This document shows positions 6,472 through 47,101 of a stretch of DNA of 64,000 bases, in pieces; the first letter of the stretch is position 1, and each line of letters starts with the position of its first letter. The position numbers and the translations under genes were made by a program. Source of the DNA: Salipaludibacillus sp. LMS25 (GTDB taxonomy: Bacteria; Bacillota; Bacilli; Bacillales; Salisediminibacteriaceae); assembly GCF_024362805.1 (NCBI RefSeq), contig NZ_CP093299.1, positions 744,001-808,000 of the forward strand, written 5' to 3'. The notes below the pieces were generated by a model. It ran no database searches. It was given only the letters and a program-made list of their open reading frames with translations, and had not been told where the DNA came from.

Positions 6472-7734
6472 ATGACGGATGTCATAATCATCGGTGGTGG
6501 GCCTGCTGGTTTGATGGCCGCGGTGGCCGCAGCGGAACACGGTGCGACCGTCTTGCTACTCGATAAAGGAAAAAAACTAGGGCGCAAACTTGCCATCTCT
6601 GGTGGGGGGCGCTGTAACGTGACCAATCGCGCGAATATTGATGATATAATTACGAATATCCCTGGTAACGGGCGATTCATGCATAGTCCCTTCTCCATAT
6701 TTAACAACGAAGACATTATTGCTTTTTTTGAAGGACTAGGAATTAAATTAAAAGAAGAAGACCGAGGTAGAATGTTTCCAGTGAACGATAAAGCGGTGGA
6801 TGTGGTCCGAGCGTTATTACATAAAATTAGGTCATTAAATGTCTCTATCCGCACGAATACAGAAGTAAGTGACGTCCTTTATAATCCGTCCGCCACTAAG
6901 GTTACAGGAGTTTTATTAAAAAATGGTGAAGAACTGAAAACAAACCGTGTTATTATCGCTGTAGGTGGAAAATCAGTTCCCCACACCGGTTCCACCGGCG
7001 ATGGCTATCCGTGGGCTGTAAAAGCCGGACATACGGTAACAGATTTATACCCTACTGAAGTCCCAATTACATGTCGTGACGCTTTTATAAAAGCGAAAAA
7101 ATTACAAGGCCTTTCATTAAGAGATGTACAATTATCTGTCCTAGACCCTAAAAAAGGAAAAATCATTAAAGCTCATGAAGGCGATATGATCTTTACTCAT
7201 TTTGGGGTTTCTGGTCCAATTAGTTTGCGTTGCAGCCAATATGTTGTTAAAGCCCTAAAAAAACATAAGGATACTGTAATTCCATTGCAGGTGGACTTGT
7301 TTCCTAAGGAGAACACTGAAGACGTATTACAACAACTCGTCCAATTACTTAAACAACAATCTAAAAAAGCAATCAAAAACGCCCTTCAAGGCTTTTTACC
7401 TGAGCGGATCATCCCAATTTTATTAGAGATGGCCCATATTGAGCCTTCAGCAATTTATCCAGAGCTTGCCCACGACAAACTTAGAGAACTAGCTCGACTC
7501 ATTAAAACTTTTCCGCTGACAGCTACAGGGACTCTTTCTATTGAAAAAGCATTTGTGACAGGGGGCGGTGTTAGTGTAAAGGAAATTCAGCCGAAACGGA
7601 TGGAATCAAAGCTGGTCAACGGGCTCTTTTTCTGCGGTGAAGTCCTTGATTTACATGGTTATACAGGTGGTTATAATATAACCGTTGCTTTTTCGACTGG
7701 CTATACAGCAGGAAAAGCAGCTGCTGACCAGTAG
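6472..7734 (+). CDS. ytfP: HI0933/YtfP-family flavoprotein oxidoreductase
   Basis: A 420-residue FAD-dependent protein of the HI0933 family. The N-terminal dinucleotide-binding motif is [20 protein letters not shown] (residues 5-24), then [17 protein letters not shown] near 42-58. The C-terminal [10 protein letters not shown] and [18 protein letters not shown] (near 385-402) complete the FAD site. Length matches family members. The physiological substrate is not established. It lies upstream of leuS on the opposite strand, as in other Bacillus genomes. The start is at AAGAAGGCGTTAAG-ATG; a terminator follows. Confidence 0.88.
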
Positions 7735-7752
7735 TAAAAGCCTCTTTTATTC

Positions 7753-7796
7753 AAAACGTCTCTCTTCATTAATACGAAGAAGAGATGTTTGTTTTA
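7753..7796 (+). terminator. Rho-independent terminator
   Basis: AAACGTCTCTCTTC pairs with GAAGAAGAGATGTTT with small imperfections, followed by GTTTTAA. It ends ytfP. Confidence 0.65.
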
Positions 7797-7898
7797 ATCA
7801 CATTGGAACGTTCCCCATAACACTAAGCAGTCGCTTCACTCAGCTTCTGTTCTCTATAATCTATTGACTAATCCACACCATCTTTTAGTTATCCTACA

Positions 7899-7950
7899 CA
7901 AAAAGCCCGCCAGAATAATGACACAGCTCATCGTGTCTTATTCTGGCGGA
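7899..7950 (-). terminator. leuS terminator
   Basis: Long perfect stem CCGCCAGAATAA.GACAC/GTGTC.TTATTCTGGCGG, followed on the reverse strand by GGCTTTTTGTG. Confidence 0.85.
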
Positions 7951-7965
7951 TGCCAATCAGTGTTG

Positions 7966-10383
7966 TTAGTTAGCAACAATGTTTACTAACTTTCCTGGAA
8001 CAGCAATCACTTTGCGAATCGTTTTGCCGTCTATTTCTTCTTTTATTTTATCTAACTCTAGAGCCTGTTTTTCTAATTCTTCTTTTGTAGCCTCTTTAGC
8101 TACCATCAGTTTTGTACGAACTTTCCCGTTTACTTGTACCACGATTTCTACTTCACTTTCAACAAGCCATGTTTCATCATATACTGGCCACAAGCTGTAA
8201 GCCAACGTCTCATCATGGCCTAACCGGCTCCAAAGTTCTTCACTTAAATGCGGAGCAACTGGTGACAATAATTTAATGAAACCTTCTAGATGACTTCTCG
8301 ATAATTGTTCCTGTTTATAGGCTTCATTCACAAACACCATTAATTGAGAAATACCTGTATTAAACCTTAATCCCTCAAAATCATCCGTCACTTTTTTCAC
8401 TGTTTGATGATAGACGCGTGTCATCTCATCACTGCTTTGGGCATCAGAGATAATAGGGTTTAGTTTTCCTTCGTCGTTAATGATTAACCGCCATACACGA
8501 TCAAGAAAACGCCGTGCACCATCTAAGCCGTTCTCACTCCATGCGATGGAAGCATCCAGTGGTCCCATGAACATTTCATAAAGTCTAAGCGTATCCGCTC
8601 CATGAGACTCAATAATATCATCTGGGTTGACGACATTTCCTTTTGACTTACTCATTTTTTCGTTATTCTCTCCAAGAATCATCCCTTGGTTATAAAGCTT
8701 TTGGAACGGCTCTTTTGTTGGAACGATGCCGATGTCGTACAACACTTTATGCCAAAATCGCGCATACAGGAGATGAAGAACTGCATGTTCCGCACCACCG
8801 ATATAAATATCTACTGGTAGCCATTGTTGTAGCTTCTTTGGATCAGCAAGCTGTTCATCATTATGCGGGTCAATATAACGCAAGTAATACCAGCAGCTCC
8901 CAGCCCATTGTGGCATCGTATTCGTTTCACGTCGCCCCTTTTTACCTGTCTTAGGGTCTGTGACATATAACCAATCAGTATTGTTAGCAAGCGGGGACTC
9001 CCCTGTTCCCGATGGCTTAAATTCCTCCATTTCAGGAAGTGTGAGTGGTAGCTCGTGTTCAGGAATAGGCTCCATTGTTCCGTCTTCCCAATGGATCATC
9101 GGAATGGGTTCTCCCCAATAACGTTGACGGCTAAATAACCAATCGCGTAACCGGTACGTGATTTGCCGTTCCCCTTTTTTATTTTTTTCTAGCCAGTCAC
9201 ACATTGCTGAAATCGCCTCTTCATTATGAAGACCATTCAGAAAGTCAGAATTAACGTGTGCACCGTCACCAGCGTACGCTTCTGTTGAAATATCACCACC
9301 TGATACCACTTCTTTGATTGGCAAGTCAAACGTTTTGGCGAACTCGTAATCTCGTTCATCATGTCCAGGAACGGCCATAATAGCCCCTGTCCCGTAATTA
9401 ACGAGCACATAATCAGCGATCCAGACAGGGACTTTTTCCCCTGTTACTGGATGAGTCGCATATCCCCCAGTAAACACCCCCGTTTTCTCTTTTGCTAACT
9501 CCGTGCGTTCTAAGTCGCTTTTTGTAGCCACTTTGTGTTGATAAGCGGTGACAGCTTCTTTTTGTTCTGCTGTCGTTAAGTCATTAACGAGGGCATGCTC
9601 AGGCGCTAGAACGAGATACGTGGCTCCGTATAAAGTATCTGGTCGCGTCGTGAAAACTGTGATCTCTTTCCCAAGCTCATCAAGCTTAAAATGAACGTCC
9701 GCACCTTCAGATCTGCCAATCCAATTCCGTTGCATATCTTTAATACTTTCAGGCCAATCTAGCTCTTCTAGATCCTCAAGAAGCCGATCTGCATAAGCTG
9801 TAATTTTCAACATCCATTGCTTCATCGGACGGCGTTCAACCGGGTGACCGCCTCGTTCACTTTTCCCGTCAATAACCTCTTCATTCGCCAGGACAGTGCC
9901 TAACGCAGGGCACCAATTAACCGCTACTTCATCCACGTACGCTAAGCCTTTTCTATATAGCTGAAGAAAGATCCACTGCGTCCATTTATAATATGTCTCA
10001 TCTGTTGTATTCACTTCTCTATCCCAATCGTAAGAGAATCCGAGTGCTTTAATTTGTCTGCGGAAATTATTAATATTTTGTTCTGTGAACTCACGCGGGT
10101 GCTTTCCAGTATCAAGGGCATATTGCTCTGCCGGTAAGCCGAAAGCGTCCCATCCCATTGGATGAAGGACGTTATATCCTTGCATGCGCTTCATTCGTGA
10201 CAAAATATCAGTGGCTGTATAGCCCTCTGGATGTCCTACATGTAAACCTGCTCCTGATGGATATGGAAACATATCCAATGCATAAAACTTTTTCTTAGAT
10301 GGATCTTCTGTTGTCGCAAATATTTTATTTTCTTCCCATACGTGCTGCCATTTTTTTTCGATTTTCTGATGTTCAAATGCCAA
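7966..10383 (-). CDS. leuS: Leucyl-tRNA synthetase
   Basis: An 805-residue class I aminoacyl-tRNA synthetase that charges tRNA-Leu in the cytosol. The HIGH-type motif appears as [17 protein letters not shown] (about residues 41-57) and the KMSKS motif as [10 protein letters not shown] (about 575-585). Between them lies the CP1 editing domain with [19 protein letters not shown] and [15 protein letters not shown]. The length is typical of bacterial LeuRS. The gene is preceded by a T-box leader with a likely CUC specifier and followed by a strong terminator, so expression should respond to uncharged tRNA-Leu. Confidence 0.97.
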
Positions 10384-10439
10384 CTTTGTTACCTCCTTAA
10401 AACTCTCTCTATAGTTAGTGTTGTCTTAACGCTTAAAAG

Positions 10440-10708
10440 CAAAAAGCCTCCCATCACTAGTTATGACTAGGGACGAGAGGCTGATAATCATCCTTCCCGC
10501 GGTACCACCCACGTTTAGCGCTAATAATAAAAAAGCACTCACTCCATACCGTTAACGCCAGTCACACGACAAAGGGTAAATCATTTCCCCTTTGCAACTC
10601 CAAGGCGAGTTCGTGAAGAACCATGGTTAACTTCCAGCGACCGTTAACTCTCTGTAACAAGGTTACTTCATTACTAATCCTTTTCTACATTTTTTGCAGA
10701 TCCATTTA
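10440..10708 (-). promoter_or_regulatory. T-box leader (leucine) of leuS
   Basis: On the reverse strand the leader contains the T-box core GGGTGGTACCGCGGG (10496-10510), the antiterminator-side sequence and a terminator hairpin AGCCTC...GAGGCT with TTTTT (10441-10482). Stem I lies at about 10600-10650. A CTC (Leu) triplet in GAACTCGCC (10607-10609) is the likely specifier. T-boxes bind uncharged tRNA and prevent termination. Confidence 0.92.
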
Positions 10709-10713
10709 TCGTC

Positions 10714-10742
10714 ATTATACGTTATTTTATGAGGAGAGACAA
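10714..10742 (-). promoter_or_regulatory. leuS promoter
   Basis: Reverse-strand TTGTCT (10737-10742), a 17-bp spacer and TATAAT (10714-10719) place the start of transcription at about 10707, just ahead of the T-box leader. Confidence 0.7.
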
Positions 10743-10838
10743 TCACTGTCAAGTTACGCTCATTTATCCAGCGGAAAATGTATTTGAAGACGCTATTAAA
10801 TGCCCACTTCATAACACCTATGAAGACAGTCTTTCTCT

Positions 10839-12047
10839 CTAAGAAGCTGAACTTTCTTGTTGTTTTTTAGTAAAATCAAGGTGAGAAACGCCTTTATCGA
10901 AAATTCGAGTCATGATAAAGGCAATCGAAAACATTGCCACAAGCACATAAAATAAGGCGGCCATTCCAAATAAGTCAGCCATGAGTCCACCGAAAAGGGG
11001 GCCTATCATCCTACCTCCTGTTCCGACACTATTTACAATCCCTTGATAAAAGCCAGCCTTTCCTTTTGGAGCTAATGTGTGGGCAATTGTCGGTATAGCT
11101 GGCCAAACAAACATTTCTCCCAAAGTTAGAATGATCATCGCTACCACAAATGCTGTCAAAGCTTCCGCATTGGCTAAAATTAAATACGAAACCATGAAAA
11201 TACTAAGTCCCACATAAATTTGTGCTTTTAAAGAATGAACCCATCTTCTTATAAAAAATTTAATAAGAGGCTGACAAAAAATGATCATTCCCCCATTAAT
11301 CGTCCACAATAGACTGTACGCACTTAATGGTATTCCTAAGTTTTGGGTATGAACAGAAATAGTCGACGCCCACTGAGTATAAGCAATCCAACACACTAAG
11401 AAGCCAGCGCATAGTAAAAGAAGCGCTTGGAATCGCTTACTACTTTCCACTCGCTCTGTCTGTTGATTCTTAGAGGAAGCTGAAACCTTCCTTCCCTCCT
11501 CTTCAAGATGCTTAAAAAAACAGAGCGCAAGTAAGAAAAAACTACCATACATCACACCGTTCCCAAAGAAAACGTAATCGAACCTGAAGCTGGCAAGTAA
11601 TCCACCGATAGCTGCCCCTGCAGCAACACCCACATTTTGTGCCACGTACATGGCATTAAACGGTTTACGCCCGCCTTCTGGCCAAATCGCTCCAGCTAAT
11701 GCATACATACAAGGGACCATCATACCGCCGCCAAACCCAATCGTTGTGAGCAAAAGGACATAAGCAGTAAATGACTGATGGAAACCAGCTAGCGTAAAAG
11801 CACTTACTGTTGTGATTGTGACACCAGTTATAATCGTTTTGTACCCTCCAATCTTATCAAACAACCTTCCACCTAATAGATTCCCTATCACTCCTGCTGC
11901 TGCGTTTATCATTGTCACACTTCCAGCCATCGTTAAAGACCGTCCCAGCTCCTGACTCATATATATGGTATTCAGTGGCCATAAAAATGACGCACCCGTC
12001 ACATTAATCGTCATCCCAATCACTAAAATCCAAATCGCTTTTGGCAT
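10839..12047 (-). CDS. Major facilitator superfamily transporter, YttB-like
   Basis: A roughly 400-residue, 12-helix MFS protein. The N-terminus MPKAIWILVIGMTINVTGAS and the loop GGRLFDKIGGYK (the MFS A-motif position) resemble B. subtilis YttB, a putative efflux transporter of unknown substrate. A longer frame starts at 12062, but the Shine-Dalgarno GGAGGGGAG ideally serves the ATG at 12047, so I use that start. It is not in an operon: the leuS leader lies downstream on the same strand and has its own promoter. The C-terminus ends in a short acidic/serine tail (KKQQESSAS). Confidence 0.8.
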   Translation of the reverse strand: MPKAIWILVIGMTINVTGASFLWPLNTIYMSQELGRSLTMAGSVTMINAAAGVIGNLLGGRLFDKIGGYKTIITGVTITTVSAFTLAGFHQSFTAYVLLLTTIGFGGGMMVPCMYALAGAIWPEGGRKPFNAMYVAQNVGVAAGAAIGGLLASFRFDYVFFGNGVMYGSFFLLALCFFKHLEEEGRKVSASSKNQQTERVESSKRFQALLLLCAGFLVCWIAYTQWASTISVHTQNLGIPLSAYSLLWTINGGMIIFCQPLIKFFIRRWVHSLKAQIYVGLSIFMVSYLILANAEALTAFVVAMIILTLGEMFVWPAIPTIAHTLAPKGKAGFYQGIVNSVGTGGRMIGPLFGGLMADLFGMAALFYVLVAMFSIAFIMTRIFDKGVSHLDFTKKQQESSAS

Positions 12048-36349: not shown

Positions 36350-36508
36350 ATAAAGCTAAGCTTCAATCAGTGGGAGTTTTCCTTCATCCCCCACTGATTG
36401 TTCGTTTAACTTATGGGACCTTTAGGGGCGGTTTATCCCCCACCTAAACTTGTCGACCTTCTTAAGTTTTGAGGTGGGGGTTTTACTGACCCTTAAGAGT
36501 GGGATAAA
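36350..36508 (+). repeat. Two-hairpin repeat, subfamily A, copy A4 (occupied site)
   Basis: Complete copy, ATAAAGCTAAGC to GTGGGATAAA. The flanks GGAAGAAATAAA and GTAAAAAATGAAAATG are found joined without the repeat at about 48045-48070 (GGAGAAATAAAAGTGAAAAATAAAGGC), an apparent empty site. Confidence 0.88.
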
Positions 36509-36783: not shown

Positions 36784-36937
36784 ATAAAGCTAAGCTTCAA
36801 TCAGTGGGCGTTTTCCTTCATCCCCCACTGATTGTTCGTTTAACTTATGGGACCTTTAGGGGCAGTTTATCCCCCACCTAAACGTTTCAACCTTCTTAAG
36901 TTTTCAGGTGGGGGTTTTACTGACCCTTAAGAGTGGG
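36784..36937 (+). repeat. Two-hairpin repeat, subfamily A, copy A5
   Basis: ATAAAGCTAAGC left end inside a gene copy; right end changed to GAGTGGGGCAG, without ATAAA. Both hairpins are intact. The sequence to its right does not continue the interrupted gene, so a deletion followed or accompanied insertion. Confidence 0.8.
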
Positions 36938-37119: not shown

Positions 37120-37518
37120 TTATTGGACACATCTGATGTACACAGGATAGTCACTCAATATGCTTCTATCAGCAAGCAACTCTATATAGTATGTCCCCTC
37201 CATATTAACTAAGAAACGACTATTTAATGCTAAATCAATCCCTGGATCCATCTGTGCTTCTCGAATATTTTGTATGAGTTCAGGATGCTCATATGAGAAT
37301 ACCACTTCTGATTCTGGGTTCTTCACAAGAATCCATAGAGGAAATGATGCATCCTTATCAAATCGTAATTTCACTAAAATATCTACAATAGCCACACTCG
37401 GAATAAGGCTCAACTCCAAATAATTCCTTACTTGAATTAACGATGTACTATTTGATTTTGGGTTAAACTCAATCTTATCAGCTACTATAATTTGCCCATA
37501 TACATTGCTGCTAGTCAT
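37120..37518 (-). CDS. Uncharacterised protein of the six-Cys peptide cluster
   Basis: The open frame reaches 37623, but GGGGGAGA best serves the ATG at 37518, giving about 132 residues starting MTSSNVYGQIIVADKIEF. It is soluble and rich in beta-strand-type sequence (SLIQVRNYLELSLIPSVAIVDILVKLRF), with no signal peptide or cysteine-pair motif. I do not recognise it confidently. It overlaps the MauE-like gene by 8 bp and is the last gene of the cluster; immunity or assembly are possible roles. Confidence 0.65.
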   Translation of the reverse strand: MTSSNVYGQIIVADKIEFNPKSNSTSLIQVRNYLELSLIPSVAIVDILVKLRFDKDASFPLWILVKNPESEVVFSYEHPELIQNIREAQMDPGIDLALNSRFLVNMEGTYYIELLADRSILSDYPVYIRCVQ

Positions 37519-38377
37519 GTGCATTCTCCCCCTTTGAAGTAATCCATTCCATATAAGAAATCGTTTCAAGTACATGTTGCGGTGAACCATCTTGTTTCCA
37601 TGTAAGAATATGAGGATGTTCAATTAAAGCGACAGGAGCTTTGCCATCTGAATGTTCTAATATACCAACATCCCACACTTTATTCTTCGCTAAAACTAAC
37701 CATGGGGGGGCTTGAAAAAATACAAGCAATGACGGATAAGATTTTGAAGACAATAAGTCATCTATTTTTTCAAACTCTGGCGATTTGTAATGTAAAAACA
37801 GCGCATGCTCCATGGATGACACCTTTACGTCTTCTTCCGTGGTATCGCTTTGCAATTTGTTAAATAATTGTACAACTTGCCCCTTTGACCGTACTATTTT
37901 TCTCTGGCTTATGACATGCGTTATCCAAACCATGAACGATAACGCTGCAAAGCAACTAATACTTTCCATGACTGAAAAAGAACGAGCAGGAAGAAAGATG
38001 CTGATGACTAACATGATGAGGAAAGTTCCGTTTCGGAGATAAGGATTACGATTTAATACCTCGACCTTCCCAAAGCATGCACAATGAGCGTTTCCACCTA
38101 AACGTTCTTTATATACAAGGAATAACGAAAATACAACGAGCACGATCATCATGCTCAGTTCTTTAACAACAGGATAGGCACCACTGATAAACCAAAAAGA
38201 GAAAATCAACTCTATATTTAAAAGAGAAAAGGCAGCTAAAGGTAGAAAGCGGTCAGGAACGATGCGATACGATCGAATGTGTAGTTTAAGATCTGTCCAT
38301 CCCTCAATTTTTGCTACAAACGCGAGCAAAAAAACAAAAGCTAACGTTAAATCAATCATAATCGAAAGGATGATCAT
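37511..38377 (-). CDS. MauE/DoxX-like membrane redox protein
   Basis: A 288-residue protein with an N-terminal membrane domain of four or five helices (residues 1-150) of the MauE type, including the conserved GNAHCACFGK (Cys99, Cys101) loop. MauE works with the thioredoxin-like MauD to form the many disulfides of methylamine dehydrogenase. The C-terminal part (about 170-288) is soluble and not recognised; YPSLLVFFQAPPWLVLAKNK is redoxin-like but lacks CxxC. One base separates it from the upstream redoxin gene. I infer a role in disulfide formation for the six-Cys peptide. Confidence 0.75.
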   Translation of the reverse strand: MIILSIMIDLTLAFVFLLAFVAKIEGWTDLKLHIRSYRIVPDRFLPLAAFSLLNIELIFSFWFISGAYPVVKELSMMIVLVVFSLFLVYKERLGGNAHCACFGKVEVLNRNPYLRNGTFLIMLVISIFLPARSFSVMESISCFAALSFMVWITHVISQRKIVRSKGQVVQLFNKLQSDTTEEDVKVSSMEHALFLHYKSPEFEKIDDLLSSKSYPSLLVFFQAPPWLVLAKNKVWDVGILEHSDGKAPVALIEHPHILTWKQDGSPQHVLETISYMEWITSKGENAHD

Positions 38378-38378
38378 A

Positions 38379-38837
38379 CTAATGCCCTCTTACTTTTTCA
38401 AGAAAGGCTTGTAGCTCTTCAATATCATCAAAACTAGTACTCGATTGCACAAGCCCATCTTGCGAAATATAAAACACATAGGGATGAGTCATTACACCAT
38501 ACGTAAAAGTAGATTCAGACAGAGATTGTGACAATAGCGGAAAGCCAAAGTTGAAATAAGATTTAATTTCTTCTATCTCGCCTTTTTTACCGTTAGAAAT
38601 TAGGATAAAGTCTTCGTCCATTTGTGTTGAAAAATCCTTTAAGTAAGGCAACAAATCGATACAATACAAGCATGACATCGAAATAAAACAAACAACTGTT
38701 TCACAAGGAGTAGTCGACTTATGAGCTACTTCGTCAGGAAACGGAAATAGTTTTCCTTTTTCAATCGGTTGTATTTCTTCACCTGTGGACTGCTTCTTAA
38801 ATAATTCCCGAAAATTGATTGTCACTTTGTTCGTCAC
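38379..38837 (-). CDS. Thioredoxin-like protein, CLYC motif
   Basis: A 152-residue redoxin-fold protein with Cys56-x-x-Cys59 in FISMSCLYCIDLLPYL, then THPYVFYISQDG, the cis-Pro strand of thioredoxin/TlpA proteins. No clear signal peptide. A GTG at 38837 or a second GTG at 38825 could start; the gene overlaps the ABC exporter by about 40 bp, which indicates coupling. MauD-like role inferred from the adjacent MauE-like protein. Confidence 0.78.
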   Translation of the reverse strand: MTNKVTINFRELFKKQSTGEEIQPIEKGKLFPFPDEVAHKSTTPCETVVCFISMSCLYCIDLLPYLKDFSTQMDEDFILISNGKKGEIEEIKSYFNFGFPLLSQSLSESTFTYGVMTHPYVFYISQDGLVQSSTSFDDIEELQAFLEKVRGH

Positions 38838-40596
38838 CCTCTTTCACCCAATCTATTTGCGAATGAACCATATCGCAATATTTCCCTTCTCGCTTCAGTA
38901 ATTGTTCATGACTACCATCCTCAATAATTCTCCCATTGTCTAGCACAATAATACGATCAGCTAGAGGAGCTACCCCTAATCGGTGAGTGACTAAGATGGT
39001 CGTTAAGCCATTCCTGTATGCAAAAATATCCTCAAGAAGTCTAGCTTCGATTTCTGGATCTAAAGCAGATGTCGCTTCATCTAGTAACAAAAACGGTCGT
39101 TCATGATAAAGAGCTCTTGCGATTGCAATTCTTTGCCACTGACCGCCTGATAACTGCTTTGAGCCATAAAATTCATTCCCTAACACAGTTTCGCATTGTC
39201 CATGTAGATCATCTGCTATTAAATATGGAAACTTTGCGATAAAGGCTTCTATCTTTCTTTTTTCATCATCATCAATTGAAGACACTGCAATATTCTCGTA
39301 AACATTGAAAGGGTACTGTAAGAAATCTTGGTTCACAACTGACATATTTTTAAAAACAGAATTTTTATTAATGGTACTCACATCTTTATGATTAAAATAG
39401 AGCATATCTTCTCCAACGCTATGCAAACCTAATAAAGCTTTTCCTAACGTAGATTTTCCTGAACCGTTTTCACCTACAATCACTAGGTTTTCTCCTAGCT
39501 TTATCCCGAGATTTATTTTTTTTAGTACAATGTGATTTGGGAAATCGGGGTAGTGAAAGGATAGCTTCTTCGCCCATATGGAAGTGAGTTGTTCATGTAA
39601 TCTAGGCTTCTGCTCCTCTTTCCTTATATCGTCCTTTGGATTGTAATTGGACAAAAACGTGTTAAATCTCTTTTTAATCACCTTAAATTCTTGAAATCCA
39701 GCTAAATAGATGGAACTAGATAACAAAGCGCCTTCAATGACACCTATGGCAACCGTAACGGCTACATAATCACCAATCGTAATTGCGTGATGAATGAGTA
39801 GATAGACCAATACTAGTTGTATCAAAAAAAAACCAAGCGGAACGAAAGAACTAGTCAATGTTTCTCCTATAGTTGCTTTGCGATAAAATCGTATTTTACT
39901 TTGTAACGCCTTCATAGACTTATCGAACCATTTATTAGCCATAAATGATTTCATCGAATAGACGAGCATGTCTTTTTGGGCCTCTGGTCCGGTAGACATG
40001 TCATACAGCATTTCAGATTCTCTATCTAGCTCAACTAATGACAACTCATGTTTTTCTCTTCTCCGTACGAGCCTATACTGATACACAATTGTAGGAAGTG
40101 AAAACAAGACAACAATCGGAAGCAGAGACCAATGATAAGCAAACAAAATAAAGCCATACATAACAAACATGATACATTGCTGGACAATACCGAATGTATG
40201 GCTAACAACTTGGCTTATGGCAGCAAAACTATTTTTCAAAAAGAAAGCATCATTTCGGTATAAGGGTCGTTCTAACGGTGTAATTGAATTGAAGTGTAGT
40301 TTATCTAAAAGGTGTTTTTCAAGATTTTTTTGACTCTTCATTGAAAGAATATTTTCCAAGTAATCTTTTAAATGTTCTAATACATTTAACGAAACATTCA
40401 CAATGAGCGTGAGGAATAATAAAAATAATATACTTTGTATCGTCTCTATTGTTGCTAATGTATCCACTATTTTTCCTACTAGTACAACGTTATACGTAGA
40501 TAATGCGGGGATCACACACACGATCAAGAGCATCCCTATTAATAATAACAGAGAATTTTTCAATGTAATTTGAATAAGTTGCTTTGAACTCTTCAT
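38797..40596 (-). CDS. ABC exporter, fused permease and ATPase
   Basis: A 599-residue half-transporter: six transmembrane helices (residues 15-310), then the ATPase with Walker A GENGSGKST, signature LSGGQWQRIAIARAL and Walker B LLLDEATSALDPE. Unlike bacteriocin exporters such as SunT it has no N-terminal C39 peptidase domain, which fits a substrate without a double-glycine leader. It lies 6 bp after the upstream redoxin gene. Most likely it exports the six-Cys peptide. Confidence 0.85.
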   Translation of the reverse strand: MKSSKQLIQITLKNSLLLLIGMLLIVCVIPALSTYNVVLVGKIVDTLATIETIQSILFLLFLTLIVNVSLNVLEHLKDYLENILSMKSQKNLEKHLLDKLHFNSITPLERPLYRNDAFFLKNSFAAISQVVSHTFGIVQQCIMFVMYGFILFAYHWSLLPIVVLFSLPTIVYQYRLVRRREKHELSLVELDRESEMLYDMSTGPEAQKDMLVYSMKSFMANKWFDKSMKALQSKIRFYRKATIGETLTSSFVPLGFFLIQLVLVYLLIHHAITIGDYVAVTVAIGVIEGALLSSSIYLAGFQEFKVIKKRFNTFLSNYNPKDDIRKEEQKPRLHEQLTSIWAKKLSFHYPDFPNHIVLKKINLGIKLGENLVIVGENGSGKSTLGKALLGLHSVGEDMLYFNHKDVSTINKNSVFKNMSVVNQDFLQYPFNVYENIAVSSIDDDEKRKIEAFIAKFPYLIADDLHGQCETVLGNEFYGSKQLSGGQWQRIAIARALYHERPFLLLDEATSALDPEIEARLLEDIFAYRNGLTTILVTHRLGVAPLADRIIVLDNGRIIEDGSHEQLLKREGKYCDMVHSQIDWVKEGDEQSDNQFSGII

Positions 40597-40602
40597 AACA
40601 AA

Positions 40603-41085
40603 TTACCCTATTCTTTTGGAAAATGGTTTCATTAATTCATTAAAATGAGCCACATGTTTCACGACATCCGACGTTAATACTTGTCCTTCCGCATTTAAGC
40701 AGTGCCCCCACGGAACACCTCTCGTCCGTAAGTCCTCATTTAATTGCTCACGAGTCACTTGAAATACATTTAACTGCGGAAGAGAGGATTCGATCAGTTG
40801 AATGTGTTCGACTCTCCCCTCAAACAAAATAACAACATTAACATCAGGTTCTTTTTGAATAAACTCTTGTAATCCATTTAATGCATCATAACAAAGGTCA
40901 CACGTTTCACTTAATAACACCACAACCAAATGATCCGTAATATAAGTATATAAAAGCATTGTTTGTTTATCTCTTAACTTCTTAAGCTGAATGTTGGGCA
41001 AATAATCTCCTATCCTTAAAGAAGGCATACCTTGACTTTCCCTTAAAAACCGGCGATGTCCATTCTCTGTATCTTCCATTGACAT
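40603..41085 (-). CDS. Thioredoxin-like protein, CDLC motif
   Basis: About 160 residues from the ATG at 41085 (preceded by GGAAGG; the frame is open to a GTG at 41094). It has the redoxin core: IGDYLPNIQLKKLRDKQTM, the active site SETCDLCYDALNGLQEF (Cys62, Cys65) and a later GVPWGHCLNAEGQVL with a third Cys. No signal peptide. First gene after the peptide; with the second redoxin and the MauE-like protein it makes a thiol-oxidation set. Confidence 0.8.
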   Translation of the reverse strand: MSMEDTENGHRRFLRESQGMPSLRIGDYLPNIQLKKLRDKQTMLLYTYITDHLVVVLLSETCDLCYDALNGLQEFIQKEPDVNVVILFEGRVEHIQLIESSLPQLNVFQVTREQLNEDLRTRGVPWGHCLNAEGQVLTSDVVKHVAHFNELMKPFSKRIG

Positions 41086-41119
41086 TTTTAACACCTTCCC
41101 ATATCCATCTTAATAAAGA

Positions 41120-41155
41120 GTCCTTTTCACCCTAACTGCATAGAATGAAAAGGAC
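41120..41155 (-). terminator. Hairpin between the peptide gene and the rest of the operon
   Basis: Perfect GTCCTTTTCA/TGAAAAGGAC stem, followed on the reverse strand by TCTTTATTAAG. The weak T-run suggests partial termination, giving more peptide transcript than exporter transcript. Confidence 0.55.
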
Positions 41156-41211
41156 ATCTTGAAGCCAATACAAATAAAAGCAAACGTTATAGTACTACTT
41201 GTCGAATGCTA

Positions 41212-41388
41212 TTAGCAGCATCCAATAAATTGACTATTTCCCCAGTAATTATAGCCAGATCCACCACCTGGACTTGAACATCTATATAATGTGCGAGTAT
41301 ATCGTGTGTTTGTAGACCCACAACGGCCACTACCACAGTATTGCTCAGTTCTTACAATACTTCTACTCCATCCTCCTGGACAAGACAT
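41212..41388 (-). CDS. Six-cysteine secreted peptide precursor (candidate bacteriocin)
   Basis: 58 residues starting MSCPGGWSRS from the ATG at 41388, with GGAAGGAGG about 8 nt upstream (an upstream TTG at 41394 is less likely). Six cysteines (3, 18, 23, 38, 57, 58) allow three disulfides; the peptide is rich in Gly, Ser, Arg and Tyr, basic, ends in IGCC, and has no visible signal peptide or double-Gly leader. It is followed by redoxins, an ABC exporter and a MauE-like protein, all on the same strand. I do not recognise a known family. A small structural toxin or bacteriocin needing oxidative folding is the best reading. Confidence 0.72.
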   Translation of the reverse strand: MSCPGGWSRSIVRTEQYCGSGRCGSTNTRYTRTLYRCSSPGGGSGYNYWGNSQFIGCC

Positions 41389-41466
41389 TAGCAAAACCTC
41401 CTTCCCTGAAAAAAATTTATGTATTGACTTCTACAACTCTTACTTTACACTAATGCAAGCGTTTTC

Positions 41467-41508
41467 ATAATAAAGTATTCCTTACCATCCCCTTAACTTC
41501 TCCTTAAC
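41467..41508 (-). promoter_or_regulatory. Peptide operon promoter with 11-bp-spaced direct repeats
   Basis: Forward-strand CCTTACC (41480), CCTTAAC (41491) and CCTTAAC (41502) are exactly 11 bp apart, the pattern bound by OmpR/PhoP-type winged-helix regulators. On the reverse strand they lie just upstream of TATTAT (41467-41472) and overlap the -35 position. Likely target of the regulator at 41538. Confidence 0.6.
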
Positions 41509-41537
41509 ACTATAATTTTTCTACTAGATTATTTGAG

Positions 41538-42200
41538 TCAATGATTTCCATTGAAAATATATCCCCCTCCTTTTTTCGTCACTAAATATTGTGGATGTAC
41601 TGGGTCTCGTTCTAACTTCTCTCTTATCTTTTTCACATGTACATATACGTTCGTATCTGATCCAATATTACCCCAAAACTCTTCTAACAGTTCTTCTCTA
41701 TCAATCACTTTGTTTTTATGCTTGAGAAAATAGAGAAGAATATCATTCTCCTTACGAGTTAAATCTATTTCTATCCCTTCTCTAATTATGACTCGTTTAT
41801 TCATATTGAAAGAAATTCCTGAGCCGATTTCCACAACTTCTTGCTCCTCTAGTTCAGAGGATGAATATTCTTTAAACTTATGGAATATTTGTGGAATTGG
41901 ATTTCTATAAATCGTGTCTACACCTGTCTTCTTCGCTCTTTCTGTTAGGTCTGGATCAATTGAAGCATCTGTGATTAAAAATACAGGACTTTGAATGAGG
42001 GAACAGAGTGTTTCAATATCATTCAAATTTGTCTCCACCAACTGGGGGATGTAAATGATCATAAAAGAGATACCTAAGTCACTCAAACATTCAACTTGCT
42101 CAACATCTCGCACAAAAATTGTACTGTACCTTTCATCTGAAAACTGACTTGTTAAAAAAGATGATGTTAAAGAATGTCTTGAATAAACTAAGATTTTCAT
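41538..42200 (-). CDS. Orphan OmpR-family regulator with atypical receiver
   Basis: A 220-residue protein. The C-terminal domain (about 125-220) is a clear OmpR/PhoB winged helix (IDLTRKENDILLYFLKHKNK, VHVKKIREKLERDP, TKKGGGYIF). The N-terminal domain has a receiver-like length and pattern, but the acidic pair after strand 1 is missing (MKILVYSRHSL) and the phospho-acceptor position reads SFMIIYIPQL with no Asp. No histidine kinase is nearby. It may respond without phosphorylation. It lies directly upstream of the peptide promoter on the same strand. Confidence 0.82.
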   Translation of the reverse strand: MKILVYSRHSLTSSFLTSQFSDERYSTIFVRDVEQVECLSDLGISFMIIYIPQLVETNLNDIETLCSLIQSPVFLITDASIDPDLTERAKKTGVDTIYRNPIPQIFHKFKEYSSSELEEQEVVEIGSGISFNMNKRVIIREGIEIDLTRKENDILLYFLKHKNKVIDREELLEEFWGNIGSDTNVYVHVKKIREKLERDPVHPQYLVTKKGGGYIFNGNH

Positions 42201-43250
42201 TTCAACCTCCTTAATAATTAATTAAACCATCCTTAAGTTTGGATAAACTGTAAAATATCATTATCACTAAGCGCTGCTTTTTACCTGTGTTGAAGGCCAT
42301 AGTCCTATAAATGAGACGTGTTCCGTTCCTTTAGATGTAATTTTCATGATTCCACGGTGTATACGATGTTCCTTTGTTTAATAGATGATCGAAAACCCTG
42401 TCACTTTCAACTGTTGGTATATTTTCTTTGTTCAACAACAAAATTGCTAATGATAGTTTTATAAGTCAGGCGGGTAGATGCCATCAATGAATCGATGGAA
42501 CGTAACCCGGAAACTGAAAGGAGGGAAATACGAGAGCTCAATCTTTGTTATTGAGTAATTCACGTATGAAAAGAAAGTAATGCCTACGAGGCATGATGCT
42601 AGAAATTCCCACTACTTAAGACCCTATCACCTAAATAATATATGGCCGGAAGTCAATCGCTACAAATTTAGAAGACAAGTTCTCCTCCAGGACCCTAAAC
42701 AAAAAAACTTCTACTTAGCTCATGAAGGCGACTGCTCGCTTAGTTGACATTACAAGAACTTGAAGTAGAACGGGTCAGACTTGATAGAATATGAAAAGAT
42801 AGAGCCAATAAAAGACGAGTAAAAAGGAGCAAGTACGATAAATTACCAAAATTCATAAAAAAACACCAGACATTCAACAACTTTATATGGGAAGTTTTAA
42901 AGCAGCATGAAACGGAGAACTATCACAGCACCTAGCGAAAACATCAGTGACCAAGCCACTAACAACCCCCCTCTCACATTGGCATAACTATAATGCGACA
43001 CTATCATTATAACAAATTTAGTCGTAAACGAATCTGGCCATACACTAAAAATGTACATCCAGATCTCTTAAAAACAGCCGAGAATTCTGTTCTAAGGTAG
43101 GAAAATACCAATATTTTAATTGAATGGGGATGGTGGTACTTCAGTTATTAAAAGGTCAGAGGAAACAGACGTTTTAGAGGAAGTTTCCGGTATCCAAATG
43201 TTTAGACTTATATACCACTGTAGTATTTGTAACTATAAATAGAACAATAA
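42201..43250. other. About 1 kb of decayed coding DNA
   Basis: No intact gene. Forward frames give broken protein-like stretches near 42470-42560 (DAINESMERNPETERREIRE), near 42630-42740 (NIWPEVNRYKFRRQVLLQ, DPKQKNFYLAHEGD) and near 43010-43100 (FSRKRIWPYTKNVHPDLLKT). Stops interrupt each. I cannot name the families; the last may be a toxin tail. Confidence 0.4.
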
Positions 43251-43583
43251 AATAACAAGCCCTCACCGATTGTTGGACTAGTTTTTTTTGAAGAGACGAA
43301 TGTCGCTTTTAAAAAGGTAACAAGTGTCTTGAAAGAGAAAATAAAGAGTGAAGAAATAGTTAAAATAACTCCGTATTGGGAGATTGAGGACATATATCTA
43401 GTAGAAGTCAATTTAGATCTTTATGAAGGGATATCTAATGATGATACCTATAAAAAATTACAGGGAACAACTAATAAATGGACCACATTTGGTAATCCTG
43501 TAAATGAATTATTGTCTTCTGTAGATATTGAAGATTGCATTATCAACATAGATAAAATAAGAATGCTAAATATACATCTATAA
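43251..43583 (+). pseudogene. 5'-truncated immunity-like gene
   Basis: The frame is open from about 43251 without an ATG; a TTG at 43329 gives 84 residues (KEKIKSEEIVKITPYWEIED...). Reading upstream continues naturally as IVGLVFFEETNVAFKKVTS, so the true N-terminus was lost. Acidic and small, next to a toxin remnant, it fits an orphan immunity gene, but I recognise no family. Confidence 0.4.
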
Positions 43584-43664
43584 TCATTTTCAAAACCTTG
43601 GTTGGTTATAGACCTTGTGGTACACAGGGAATCAAGGTTGTTCCTAAAAGTTCTAACTAGTTAT

Positions 43665-44026
43665 TCAAAGCCTATAGGAGATAGTGATGAAATTAAAGAC
43701 GAAAGTAAATTGATTTTCATCTAGATGGGGTCTTCCAGTATGTGTATGAGCTATTTTGTCATTTGAATGCTCGACTACTAATTTCTCACCTTGAGGTATA
43801 TCGTATTCATAGTAACGACCATGAAGCGTCTTACTTGCACTATAATTACATTTTCAAGTCTCATATCCTTTTTTAGTAATATCATCTCCTACTCGCCATT
43901 GCTGAGTAGGCTGTTGTGAACGAGGAACGTCTACTAAGTCTTTAGCCTTTGTAAATGTTTCTTTTCTATTTAAATTACTTGTTGTCTTAACAACATCTTC
44001 AACATTATCCGCTAATTGCTTCATAT
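43665..44026 (-). pseudogene. Polymorphic-toxin C-terminal remnant
   Basis: Reverse-strand frame ADNVEDVVKTTSNLNRKETF...RVGDDITKKGYET, then an in-frame TGA, then NYSASKTLHGRYYEYDIPQ and HTHTGRPH. This looks like the pre-toxin and toxin tail of an LXG-type protein without its N-terminal LXG domain, killed by a stop. The 44026 end meets the amidase remnant head-on. Confidence 0.55.
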
Positions 44027-44029
44027 TTA

Positions 44030-44556
44030 TTGAAAGATAATACTTTCCTAGATAAAGTGGCTGAGGGGCATGGGAATGCTGCAATTGCTAAAATGCTCCG
44101 ATTTAAGTCTGGCTCGTCTTCTGGCGGATCAAACACACGAAGTAAGCCTAGATCATCCAAGCCTAATCAACAAACAAAACATCTGGCACGATCGTCACGA
44201 TCCAGCGCACGCTTAACAGCCGTTACCATTTGAGTATATCAGTAGATAACCTGTTTCGCCCTCAAACAAAAGGGGCGTCAGTTAAAGGACTACAAACAGA
44301 ACTGAATAGACAGTTTAACCGTGGACTTACTGTCGATGGTGTTTTTGGCTCTAAAACACGTAGAGCATGTGTAACAGTACGCCAAGGAGCAAGAGGAAAC
44401 ATCACGTGGATTCTTCAAGCCATCCTGCATTGTAAAGGAACGAGTCCAGGAGCTGTAGACGGGATCTTCGGAGCCAAAACAAGAAGCGCCGTCCGTACTT
44501 TCCAACGACAAAATAATTTACAAGTGGAGGGGATTGCGGGACCTTAGACATTTCAG
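44030..44556 (+). pseudogene. N-acetylmuramoyl-L-alanine amidase 3' remnant with peptidoglycan-binding repeats
   Basis: Forward frame DKVAEGHGNAAIAKML is the end of an amidase catalytic domain, followed by a Ser/Lys-rich linker, a frameshift near 44225, and two PG_binding_1 motifs (VDGVFGSKTRRACV and VDGIFGAKTRSAVRTFQRQN). It then hits a stop in place of a Gln just before TFQMLFK. A further decayed copy is at 59119-59255. Probably an old prophage or cell-wall hydrolase. Confidence 0.7.
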
Positions 44557-44630
44557 ATGTTGTTTAAATGATCAAAAATAGCAGGGGTTTTAGTGCCCCA
44601 GAAAACTTTCACAAGTAGTCTAAATATAAT

Positions 44631-45056
44631 CTACAATTTTTCTAAAGAAAAAACTAGTTTATCAAAATCCGTTTCAAAACCAATATCATTACAGCCATAA
44701 ATTACTTCTTTATCTTTTTGATCTATCACCATACCCGATGAATATGATTGAGAGTTCTTGCCTTCCCCTTTATCCCAGATATTATAGAAGCTTAACGTAC
44801 CATTCTCAGTAAAACATTTTAGAAGCACTTCTTTTGGAGCAGTATCTTCCCATAACTCTATAGATGAATAGGTTTGCCCCATAACTTCTATTCCTCCATC
44901 CGTTATAAACCAAATTCCTTGACGGTAAGGAGAATTTTTACTAAGAAAAGTAATTTTAACTTCTTGCCCATCAGATACTGATTGAGACTCCCATTTTATT
45001 ATATTTCCTTCGTCTTTATCTTTAAATCCCTTGCTCATGATACGTTCAAAGTTCAA
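44631..45056 (-). CDS. Uncharacterised 141-residue protein, immunity-like
   Basis: Starts with TTG at 45056, supported by AAAGGAGAG 9 nt upstream; no ATG fits. It is soluble and acidic, with beta-type stretches (ITFLSKNSPYRQGIWFITDG, SIELWEDTAPKEVLLKC). Not recognised. Its position among toxin remnants and immunity genes suggests an immunity role. Confidence 0.6.
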   Translation of the reverse strand: MNFERIMSKGFKDKDEGNIIKWESQSVSDGQEVKITFLSKNSPYRQGIWFITDGGIEVMGQTYSSIELWEDTAPKEVLLKCFTENGTLSFYNIWDKGEGKNSQSYSSGMVIDQKDKEVIYGCNDIGFETDFDKLVFSLEKL

Positions 45057-45159
45057 CTGCTTTCACTCTCCTTTCGAACTTGGTCCTCACGCCCACGACA
45101 TAGGTCATTAGTCATTCGCATATAAGAGGGAGCATAAGACTATTAGTCAACGAGGAATA

Positions 45160-45191
45160 AAAAAGCGTAGGGGGGGAAGTGAACCCCCTAC
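45160..45191 (-). terminator. Terminator after the Imm30-like gene
   Basis: GTAGGGGG/CCCCCTAC stem (45167-45191) with TTTTTT on the reverse-strand side and ATTTTT on the other, so bidirectional. Confidence 0.6.
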
Positions 45192-45218
45192 TTAATTTTT
45201 ATCATCCCGGTCAATAAG

Positions 45219-45368
45219 ATGTTAAAATACCCGACAGGGCATAAGGACGGACCTTTTCCTGAAACAGACGTGTTTCAGGTTATTCGTGCTGGTATAAATC
45301 AAAAAAAGAGCGATCAGTGGTCGCATAGGTTTGACTTAATACCGAGTGAGAACCTCGCCCATACTTAA
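45219..45368 (+). pseudogene. Possible 49-residue remnant
   Basis: Forward frame MLKYPTGHKDGPFPETDVFQ...FDLIPSENLAHT. It looks like a piece of a larger protein (toxin tail?) rather than a complete gene; the ribosome binding site is poor. Family not recognised. Confidence 0.35.
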
Positions 45369-45393
45369 TAAACCCTGAAAAGCATTTAGCCAA

Positions 45394-45858
45394 TCAAGAT
45401 GACATGTTTAATACTTCATCAACAAAATCGCCAAACATAGCTGGATCTTTACTTTTTATGTCTTTTAATAAATTTATGACTATTTCTTTTCTCTTATCAT
45501 CTAGCTTAGAAAGCATGCTCCCATACACTCTTCGTACTTGTTCATGATTTAAAATTCTGTAATGTAAAAATTCCATCCATTCTCTTGCTCTATCAATAAC
45601 GCTTGGAACAACTGAAGCGATTAGGTACAACCCTTCTTCAACATCCACTCTATAAAGGCGCTCTATCCCATGGATTAATCTGAACATTATTTCATGTTGC
45701 TCTGTATCATCGTCAAAAGCCATACATAATTCATCAATAATTGATACATCTCCCAAAGCAATGAGATTGCTTAATGCTTCTTCAAATTCAGACATTTCTT
45801 TTTGGGACTGTAAAAGTCGATTGGTGTAGACTCTTTTTAATTCTGCCTTGACATCCAT
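45394..45858 (-). CDS. Imm30-like immunity protein
   Basis: About 154 residues from the ATG at 45858, preceded by GAGGTGG (the frame is open to a GTG at 45873). It is helical, with the pattern FEEALSNLIALGDVSIIDEL, CMAFDDDTEQHEIMFRLIHG, AREWMEFLHYRILN, which resembles the Imm30 family of polymorphic-toxin immunity proteins. A broken toxin tail lies directly upstream on the same strand, as expected for a toxin-immunity cassette. Confidence 0.6.
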   Translation of the reverse strand: MDVKAELKRVYTNRLLQSQKEMSEFEEALSNLIALGDVSIIDELCMAFDDDTEQHEIMFRLIHGIERLYRVDVEEGLYLIASVVPSVIDRAREWMEFLHYRILNHEQVRRVYGSMLSKLDDKRKEIVINLLKDIKSKDPAMFGDFVDEVLNMSS

Positions 45859-45875
45859 ATACTTCCACCTCACTT

Positions 45876-46075
45876 ATTGAATAACTCTGGATATAATTCT
45901 TTATTTTTTTAATAGTATTTGAAAGGCCGTTTCTTATTTCAGGTGTGAAGACACCATCTTTCTTGTATATCCTTCTTGTCGTATGCTTTACCTTGTTTTG
46001 CAAGTTCTCTAAAAGTCCCTACTTGGCCCTCGTTAGGCCAAAAGGGGTTTCGCAACACTCCCAACGTTATCTGCA
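45876..46075 (-). pseudogene. Toxin C-terminal remnant paired with the Imm30-like gene
   Basis: Reverse-strand frame NPFWPNEGQVGTFRELAKQG then KAYDKKDIQ, which resembles the GTFxELxKxG(K) nuclease tails of LXG/WXG toxins; a frameshift leads into DGVFTPEIRNGLSNTIKKIK. No N-terminal toxin part is present. Confidence 0.5.
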
Positions 46076-46104
46076 ATATTAGTTATTCTAACTTAAAAAG
46101 GGAG

Positions 46105-46256
46105 TATTGTCGTTTTTTAAAAATATTGGTTATTATTCTTGACCCTTCAGCTCTTTTCCATTTTATCTTTCCTTATTCAATGTGGCCAAATTATTATACT
46201 TTAAGTGGATTTATTTTTTCCCTAATTATGTATATTGTTTCTAAAAATAAAAACTA
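46105..46256 (+). pseudogene. Decayed copy of the small membrane ORF at 60502
   Basis: The frame reads ILVIILDPSALFHFIFPYSM then YYTLSGFIFSLIMYIV, about 80% like the 49-residue protein at 60502-60651, but the ATG is lost (ATGTTT has become CGTTTT). Confidence 0.6.
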
Positions 46257-46374
46257 ATCTAAACATCTAAGCTCAGCAATCGAAGAGAGCTTGATTCTTT
46301 ATTGTTACGTAAATTTATTGTATCATTTCACCGTATTCACCTGTCATTTATTTGTTCATCCCTTTCACAACTTG

Positions 46375-46532
46375 TCCATTCATACCAGCTCAAGATGAGC
46401 CAGTAGTTTGCGTGTGTTCCTGTCCTTCTCTTTCCTCGTTAGCCTCAATCTGTAGGCCTCGATAAAGTTATCAATGGCTTCTTTTGATGGTTCTTTGCGG
46501 CCTACATTATTAATCTTTTAGTTAGAAGCCAT
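46375..46532 (-). pseudogene. Decayed copy of the small reverse ORF at 60923
   Basis: Starts ATGGCTTCTAAC then TAA, so only MASN is made. The remainder (NNVGRKEPSKEAIDNF) matches the gene at 60923-61072, including the strong GGAGGGAG ribosome binding site. Confidence 0.65.
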
Positions 46533-46894
46533 CGTCATAACTCCCTCCTTCCATGATTATTTATATGCGTTGGTTAGAATGTCCTAAAACCTGTATTGAT
46601 TAAGTTCTGTCTAATGATTATCATCCTCCGATGTTAAGTCGATCTCTCAACACTGTAACTTCCTTTGAACGTTCAATTATTGATTTATCTTGCACTAGTT
46701 TGATGAACCACTGTTTAAGAAAATAAAGCACATTCCTATAAGTCCTTGTTCTCCAATGTAGATACAATACTATTCAACCACTCTTCTAACCGACATCAAT
46801 CCATCTCTCTAGCTGATCACCAGGTGAAAAAGTTTGCCAATAAGAAAGCTCAGATTTTAACATTGCACTAAAATCACTAAACTAAATGTAAAAG

Positions 46895-47101
46895 GACAAG
46901 ATTTAAACATTCAACTAATGAATTAGACATAAATGAGGAATCACTCGATGAGAAAAATCTAAGGTTGAAGAAAGTTTATCACTTAACCGCCCACTATCAT
47001 AAATCCTCTTTCTATCATCAGAGAGAACTCCTTCACAGCATTTCCAATCCGTAGTTATCACACGAGAACTGGGGAGAAACAAGCGATTATATACTCAAAT
47101 A
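46895..47101 (+). pseudogene. 3' remnant of a serine recombinase
   Basis: Matches the end of the recombinase at 61442-62827 (LNELDV, VYHLTAHYHKSSFYHQRELL, then a stop and SDYILK-like end). More than 1.1 kb of the gene, including the catalytic domain, is missing. Confidence 0.75.

Follow-up and report, generated by a model that had tools for sequence, protein, structure and literature searches.

What does a bacterium make with a 58-residue, six-cysteine peptide whose gene stands in one operon with two redoxins, an exporter and a membrane protein of the MauE family? The question is raised by a 64,000-nucleotide stretch of the chromosome of Salipaludibacillus sp. LMS25 (contig NZ_CP093299.1, positions 744,001 to 808,000; hereafter the window, in whose numbering all its positions are given). 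On its minus strand, between 37120 and 41388, six genes follow one another in the order peptide, first redoxin (RDX1), ATP-binding cassette (ABC) exporter, second redoxin (RDX2), MauE joined to a soluble domain, and a DUF6941-like gene. We conclude with good confidence that this is a biosynthesis and export operon for a small, most likely defensin-like peptide that is a distant relative of laterosporulin, for which the individual steps can be proposed. An earlier note, made from the DNA letters alone, had suggested a small disulfide-rich secreted peptide with a MauE/redoxin module of its own, and conserved neighbours, an even number of cysteines in 43 of 43 peptides and the laterosporulin loci all support that suggestion. 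The genes of the operon are as follows.

41397..41403, minus strand: Shine-Dalgarno sequence AAGGAGG, 8 nt before the peptide ATG (Shine-Dalgarno score 8)
41212..41388, minus strand: 58-residue six-cysteine peptide, apparently leaderless, neighbour of RDX1 (open reading frame, Shine-Dalgarno sequence, family profile)
40603..41085, minus strand: RDX1, ResA/YkuV-like redoxin with CxxC (motif CDLC)
38797..40596, minus strand: ABC exporter, permease-ATPase, 599 residues, no C39 peptidase domain
38379..38837, minus strand: RDX2, second CxxC redoxin, GTG start (motif CLYC)
37511..38377, minus strand: MauE (residues 1-128, CxCFG motif; PF07291) fused to a soluble domain without cysteine
37120..37518, minus strand: DUF6941-like protein, predicted to be an all-beta sandwich

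Results

The window operon carries the gene order of the laterosporulin loci

Laterosporulin is a purified leaderless bacteriocin of 50 residues that loses only its methionine, has three disulfides and solved structures, and is accompanied by an ABC transporter without an N-terminal protease domain (PMC3293901, PMC8529825). When the 398 genomes of the class were searched with a homologue from Table 5 of PMC6510442, 4 gave matches at an E value of 0.01, and the three good ones define loci L064, L065 and L066, all in Brevibacillus laterosporus-type genomes (that of L065 is genome G484). After removal of methionine the L065 peptide is exactly the chain of PDB 6lwy and the L066 peptide, with two differences from L065, exactly that of PDB 4ozk. 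All three loci read regulator, peptide, RDX1, ABC exporter, RDX2, MauE, soluble domain and DUF6941-like gene, the same order as in the window. The earlier note had known of no described system with its exact gene set; these loci supply one.

The likeness to laterosporulin, laterosporulin3 and laterosporulin10 (Brevibacillus; class IId, defensin-like; PDB 4ozk, 6lwy and 6lwz) thus covers the gene order, including the C39-less exporter, the apparent absence of a leader, the start M-A/S-C, the six cysteines and the placing of both exporters in one group. The window differs in that its peptide has four of six cysteine columns in common with laterosporulin and ends in CC, in that its MauE is fused to the soluble domain, and in that its regulator is a winged-helix protein, whereas that of L065, the only one of the three subjected to a Pfam test, is of the LuxR type.

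The published laterosporulin region comprises 4 kb with a regulator, a hypothetical protein, an ABC transporter and a dehydrogenase (PMC3293901). In L066 the start of the regulator gene and the end of RDX2 enclose 3.94 kb (7082-11023), with MauE and the remaining genes beyond. The published region therefore matches, in size and gene list, the part of the locus that ends before MauE, and we infer that its 'dehydrogenase' is RDX2. Two attempts at expression in other hosts have failed. According to PMC6510442, one used the 4-kb piece; the other, described in the same paper, introduced EcoRI fragments 6.74-6.75 kb long into B. subtilis 168 and L. lactis. The peptide of L064 is, among the three loci, the most similar to that of the EcoRI-fragment study, and the L064 EcoRI fragment spanning it measures 6.87 kb and ends inside RDX2; L065 and L066 have EcoRI sites elsewhere, among them inside RDX1 and MauE. 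The MauE module of the laterosporulin locus appears not to have been described previously: among the matches listed in our literature search, whose coverage excludes most subscription papers, none gives an account of MauE in this locus or of the wider peptide set described below.

The proteins of the operon

The gene list and order of the earlier note hold throughout, all genes being present on the minus strand as it had stated; it had missed a winged-helix regulator upstream and some 160 further residues of the MauE protein. By open reading frame coordinates, RDX1 and the exporter are separated by 6 nt, the exporter and RDX2 overlap by 41 nt, RDX2 and MauE are 1 nt apart, and the end of MauE reaches 8 nt into the last gene, a spacing that is operon-like.

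The peptide is present as the note had described it, with a strong ribosome site and no visible leader. It starts with ATG and has its cysteines at residues 3, 18, 23, 37, 57 and 58, so that the first is reached already at residue 3. No other frame of its kind (35-80 residues, six or more cysteines, a Shine-Dalgarno match 6 nt or longer) occurs anywhere in the 64-kb window, and none arose in 20 first-order Markov resamples of its sequence searched with the same thresholds. Searches found no homologue among 5.8 billion proteins and no copy in the seven other genomes of the genus. Its predicted model has four beta strands (mean pLDDT 89); the laterosporulin structure is a twisted sheet of four strands with three disulfides (PMC8529825).

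Both CxxC redoxins of the earlier note are borne out. They are homologous to each other and related to ResA, StoA and YkuV, and the CxxC and one proline are invariant in the aligned rows (26 for RDX1, 24 for RDX2) from the 36 loci described below. Against the MauD model TIGR02661 they score 28.2 and 15.4 bits, far under its cut-off of 188.6. A hydropathy scan found an N-terminal membrane anchor in 0 of 36 RDX1 and 0 of 36 RDX2 proteins, with starts chosen by script and some of them too short. The exporter likewise lacks a C39 peptidase as claimed, Peptidase_C39 giving no match in the three exporters scanned (window, L065 and L057); the other exporters of the set were judged C39-less by length only.

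The MauE protein of the note is equally confirmed, at 66.1 bits against a PF07291 cut-off of 27, and its CxC motif reads CAC. The roughly 160 residues that follow the MauE domain form the cysteine-less soluble domain, a separate gene in relatives. The search of 5.8 billion proteins returned one relative, at 97% identity, and the protein was not found in the other 34 genomes of the family, the seven other members of the genus included. The last protein, 'unrecognised' in the earlier note, indeed has no Pfam match in its window copy, DUF6941 (PF22091) included, but its homologues place it: at a cut-off of 27, the three scanned score 45 (L064), 21.9 (L048) and 16 bits (L057), and judged by these sequences the window protein is related to DUF6941.

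A set of 36 loci encodes at least 43 cysteine-even peptides

Genome searches of the kind that the earlier note had advised gathered 36 loci, mainly from two further families and for the most part by means of a profile of the last gene. PF07291 matches at E values up to 0.001 occur in 227 of 397 genomes of the window's order, mostly short and weak, and exceed the cut-off in 99. We took the neighbourhoods of the 28 other matches that scored 58 bits or more, with open reading frames called by our own script, and removed L032, which has no MauE by our own profile. Many of the 28 adjoin genes for an ABC exporter and a redoxin as well as a small cysteine-rich frame, and in two, L048 and L057, each of the six operon genes of the window has a relative, the soluble domain being encoded on its own. 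Across the window, L048, L057 and the laterosporulin loci the last gene can be aligned, and a profile of it matches 8 of 398 genomes of the class (that of the window included), 26 of 245 in the family of genome G560 and 4 of 39 in the family of G484. These matches with L048 and L057 make 37 neighbourhoods, L082, a profile match without a cluster, having been set aside beforehand; L141, also without a cluster, was then removed to leave the 36. They come from the family of G560 (27), the family of G484 (6) and the window's order (3), and contain RDX1 and RDX2 in all 36 cases, the ABC exporter in 34, MauE in 33 and the soluble domain in 31. Such a set of similar clusters in related bacteria seems not to have been described, and laterosporulin is the only studied branch found in it.

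A strict scan for small frames finds 40 peptides in the cluster cores, which total 246 kb, as against a single one in the 325 kb of flanking DNA, and even that one resembles a family member. The earlier note would have given up its peptide had the frame not been conserved beside the same neighbours; relatives adjoin the same genes in 29 loci by the strict rule, the window among them, and in the other 7 on a looser look (in L064-L066, L080, L140 and L142 a peptide with a weaker Shine-Dalgarno sequence was taken; the peptide of L135 sits just beyond the core). Pooling the 40 strict core peptides, the flank peptide and six with weaker Shine-Dalgarno sequences, we count 43 distinct peptides, the window's included, of 41-71 residues: 10 have six cysteines, 28 have eight, 5 have ten, and none has an odd number. 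Among peptides with seven or more cysteines, 33 of 33 family members are even versus 8 of 37 control frames (8 even, 29 odd), the controls having weak ribosome sites and coming from the same and wider loci; at six or more cysteines the controls stand at 71 even and 29 odd. Grouped at 50% identity, the 36 peptides of the strict set form 21 clusters, none of which has a member with an odd number. Even numbers are what a fully disulfide-paired product predicts.

Residue 2 is alanine, serine, glycine, cysteine or proline in 39 of the 43 peptides and is thus suited to removal of the methionine; none of the peptides in the set has a strongly hydrophobic stretch. The window precursor is probably the product itself, less its methionine. 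Net charge is zero or negative in 27 of the 43.

Tandem copies occur, three in L077, three in L078 and four identical ones in L136. The triplets (L077:7206-7976 and L078:7243-8008) belong to a second peptide locus in Brevibacillus laterosporus-type genomes, with eight-cysteine peptides of the MGCPSGW...GCC kind, which we did not meet in the literature examined; the four genes at L136:10829-11707 encode a 64-residue, eight-cysteine peptide. Three family-like frames, in L120, L130 and L135 (10, 8 and 6 cysteines), stand outside the 43. A further six frames admitted by the looser rule were not counted: they have four or five cysteines or odd starts, and features of the family are missing.

The peptides are probably related, through intermediates

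Direct comparison of the window peptide with laterosporulin is too weak to join them, and the link runs through intermediates. A phmmer search of PDB with the window peptide returned no laterosporulin, and a three-row laterosporulin profile did not place the window peptide among its 22 best unseen rows. In contrast, a profile of 42 peptides without the window's finds it among 5,730 small frames at an E value of 6e-8. When the laterosporulins are left out as well, the profile recovers the window peptide at 1.3e-9, the laterosporulins at 8e-5, 9e-5 and 0.023, and the three uncounted frames of L120, L130 and L135 at 7e-9 to 3e-6; the next row, a peptide of the wider-cluster locus L056, follows at 0.13. 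In an alignment of 13 peptides M1, C3, P4, C18, C37 and C58 of the window peptide are invariant. In an exporter tree of 54 rows with a midpoint root the window and laterosporulin exporters fall in one group of 21 with support 100/100; all 34 exporters of this type do not form a single group in that tree (4 changes). Very probably, then, the window system is related to the laterosporulin system and works alike, while its peptide, with only four of the six cysteine columns matching, is not laterosporulin proper.

Charge patterns predict a cytoplasmic redox module

The positive-inside rule allows the membrane side of the redox proteins to be predicted. In 37 MauE proteins with the motif CxC[F/L]G, the loop after the first transmembrane segment and the loop around CxC carry on average 3.3 and 5.0 lysines plus arginines, as against 0.03 in the N-terminus and 0.6 and 0.2 in the other two loops; counted per 100 residues, the loop between the second and third segments contrasts less strongly, at 8.9 versus 15.0 and 19.0. 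These averages use fixed windows relative to the motif and leave out 21 MauE proteins without CxC[F/L]G, which comprise most of the wide set and that of L125. Proteins of the soluble domain have an N-terminal membrane segment in 26 of 30 cases, with 0 lysines plus arginines before it and 4.0 within the 15 residues after it. The redoxins of the wider clusters are anchored likewise in 21 of 23 cases, with 0.14 before and 3.0 after; a ResA-like row of L036 (1688-2278), with Lys-Lys ahead of its membrane segment, was left out of this count. By that rule, and on a simple hydropathy scan, the CxC of MauE, the redoxins and the soluble domain are all predicted to lie on the cytoplasmic face, so that folding may precede export.

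Related and analogous systems

MauE of PF07291 beside ResA/MauD-like redoxins is an arrangement common to the window and the Mau cluster (MauE, MauD), whose substrate, methylamine dehydrogenase, is rich in disulfides (PMC7794033). The window differs in its redoxins, which lie far under the MauD cut-off and have no anchor, and in its substrate, a small and apparently leaderless peptide served by a dedicated ABC exporter. The exporter of sublancin, unlike that of the window, carries a protease domain. Sublancin (bdbA, bdbB) and bactofencin A (a thioredoxin-domain protein) resemble the window as disulfide bacteriocins with redox proteins of their own (PMC5100339, PMC7616364); they differ in having a leader, the exporter of bactofencin A has a protease domain, and the passages on them in these two papers name no MauE. 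Class I lasso clusters (svi, msl) likewise place a DoxX-family membrane protein and a CxxC redoxin in a peptide cluster (PMC9266682), but encode a precursor with a leader together with B and C enzymes, genes that the window does not have.

The window's order also holds a second kind of cluster (L033, L036-L039, L043, L047, L051, L053 and L056). It resembles the window in combining MauE, a redoxin, an ABC exporter and small peptides with four to eight cysteines, and differs in that its MauE mostly reads CGCGG (L056 has another motif), its redoxin is mostly membrane-anchored, most of its peptides have an N-terminal extension, and no DUF6941-like gene was seen in it. Several of the peptides have a YDS.TG-like motif. 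By the strict rule the wide clusters yield peptides in 6 of 25 loci, 6 of 6 with even cysteines. Ten relative peptides, eight of them from clusters of this second kind, gave no family match when scanned.

Other products appear beside MauE in these neighbourhoods. L040 (8920-9348), in the window's own genus, and L054 (9621-10058) encode proteins of 142 and 145 residues with 12 and 16 cysteines after MauE and an anchored redoxin; neither has a Pfam match, and by eye that of L054 starts with a twin-arginine-like signal. They may resemble the light chain of methylamine dehydrogenase. In L035 and L045, of the window's order, MauE stands beside what look by eye like lasso-like precursors and exporters, and L035 adds a transglutaminase-like protein.

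Surroundings of the operon

Two further minus-strand features accompany the operon.

41120..41155, minus strand: hairpin with a stable fold, between the peptide gene and RDX1
41538..42200, minus strand: winged-helix regulator (PF00486, Trans_reg_C)

Read from 42200 down to 37120, the strand thus begins with the regulator and continues through the six operon genes. A Pfam scan found no receiver domain in the regulator, and inspection by eye of the surrounding list of open reading frames showed no kinase gene nearby; from its position, it possibly controls the operon. The hairpin (dG -30.0, z -3.3 versus 60 shuffles, for the 110 nt that follow the peptide stop) is possibly a stabiliser of the mRNA or a leaky terminator.

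Just past the operon end lie two direct copies of 154 nt, 96% identical, at 36350-36503 and 36784-36937, with no Rfam family. Upstream, 42600-47000 resembles debris of repeated genes; the segment or its pieces give 28 matches in the same genome, itself counted, and matches in 4 of 7 other members of the genus.

Discussion

We propose that the peptide would be translated without a leader from its strong ribosome site and lose its methionine, as reported for laterosporulin. Its six cysteines would then be joined into three disulfides by the two CxxC redoxins, themselves re-oxidised through the CxC of MauE, possibly at the inner face of the membrane and before export. The C39-less ABC exporter, with no leader to cut, would secrete the folded peptide, and the product, by analogy with laterosporulin, would be antibacterial towards competitors. 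The DUF6941-like protein and the cysteine-less domain linked to MauE are conserved partners, perhaps in assembly or self-protection.

Tentatively, and with less than even confidence, we extend this proposal to a folding machine of general use on the cytoplasmic face, in which MauE, its CxC inside, re-oxidises two soluble redoxins that pair the cysteines of leaderless peptides with six to ten of them, and a C39-less ABC exporter releases the folded products. Such a machine would serve a large undescribed set of peptides, spread over the window's order, Brevibacillus and another family whose genomes are large, and clones without MauE and the downstream genes would explain the two failed expressions.

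Disulfide formation by MauE and the redoxins is what we infer, and we favour this folding role because no locus of the set lacks either redoxin. One observation weighs against it: sviceucin, a class I lasso peptide, is still made when the redoxin SviF is lost, but is then found only in the mycelia (PMC9266682). The parity of the cysteines, for its part, does not extend to every peptide of the wider kind, since two related ones, in the wide clusters L047 and L053, have seven cysteines each and weaker Shine-Dalgarno sequences. The redoxins and MauE might instead keep the peptide reduced or pass it to the exporter, with disulfides forming spontaneously outside. The mycelial retention of sviceucin, whose cluster pairs SviF with the DoxX-family SviE, would suit such a role; MS-271 is likewise still detected, at lower yield, after single knock-outs of mslE and mslF (PMC9266682), laterosporulin has been folded in vitro from an N-SH2 fusion with no redox reagents added (PMC8529825), and redoxins predicted to be cytoplasmic fit reduction equally well. 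The retention of two different redoxins in 36 of 36 loci is, however, more than simple export needs, and we regard this explanation as doubtful.

The same machinery could also release a signal, a surface peptide or a host-directed peptide in place of an antibacterial one. Assays are, to our knowledge, confined among these peptides to laterosporulin and its near relatives, the zero or negative charge of 27 of the 43 is unlike that of many cationic antimicrobial peptides, and the divergence of the strict set into 21 clusters points the same way, but patchy presence and tandem copies suit bacteriocins, and such a product is somewhat less probable still.

It is very improbable that the cysteines carry thioether, lanthionine or sactionine links and that the locus is a cluster for a ribosomally synthesized and post-translationally modified peptide (RiPP). 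decRiPPter did list three Streptomyces candidate RiPP families with mauE, for which a precursor-modifying role was suggested (PMC7794033), yet no radical SAM, Lan or other tailoring enzyme is found among the seven proteins scanned, no leader is visible, cysteines are even throughout the counted set, and laterosporulin has plain disulfides. That the peptide is a chance frame of only 58 residues, without a homologue in the protein database search, and the exporter's substrate something else, is hardly credible in view of its strong Shine-Dalgarno sequence, the family-profile E value of 6e-8 and an operon place in common with laterosporulin.

For an operon that makes and exports a laterosporulin-type peptide, several consequences follow. 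Laterosporulin has until now been treated as an isolated peculiarity of Brevibacillus; it here takes its place as one branch among loci that together encode at least 43 distinct peptides, and the conserved MauE/redoxin/DUF6941 module offers a search handle for new disulfide-rich peptides. Absence of the MauE module may provide a simple and testable reason for failed expression in other hosts, and the role of MauE becomes approachable through small soluble substrates in place of methylamine dehydrogenase. Folding on the cytoplasmic side, if true, would break the usual rule that the disulfides of exported bacterial proteins are made outside.

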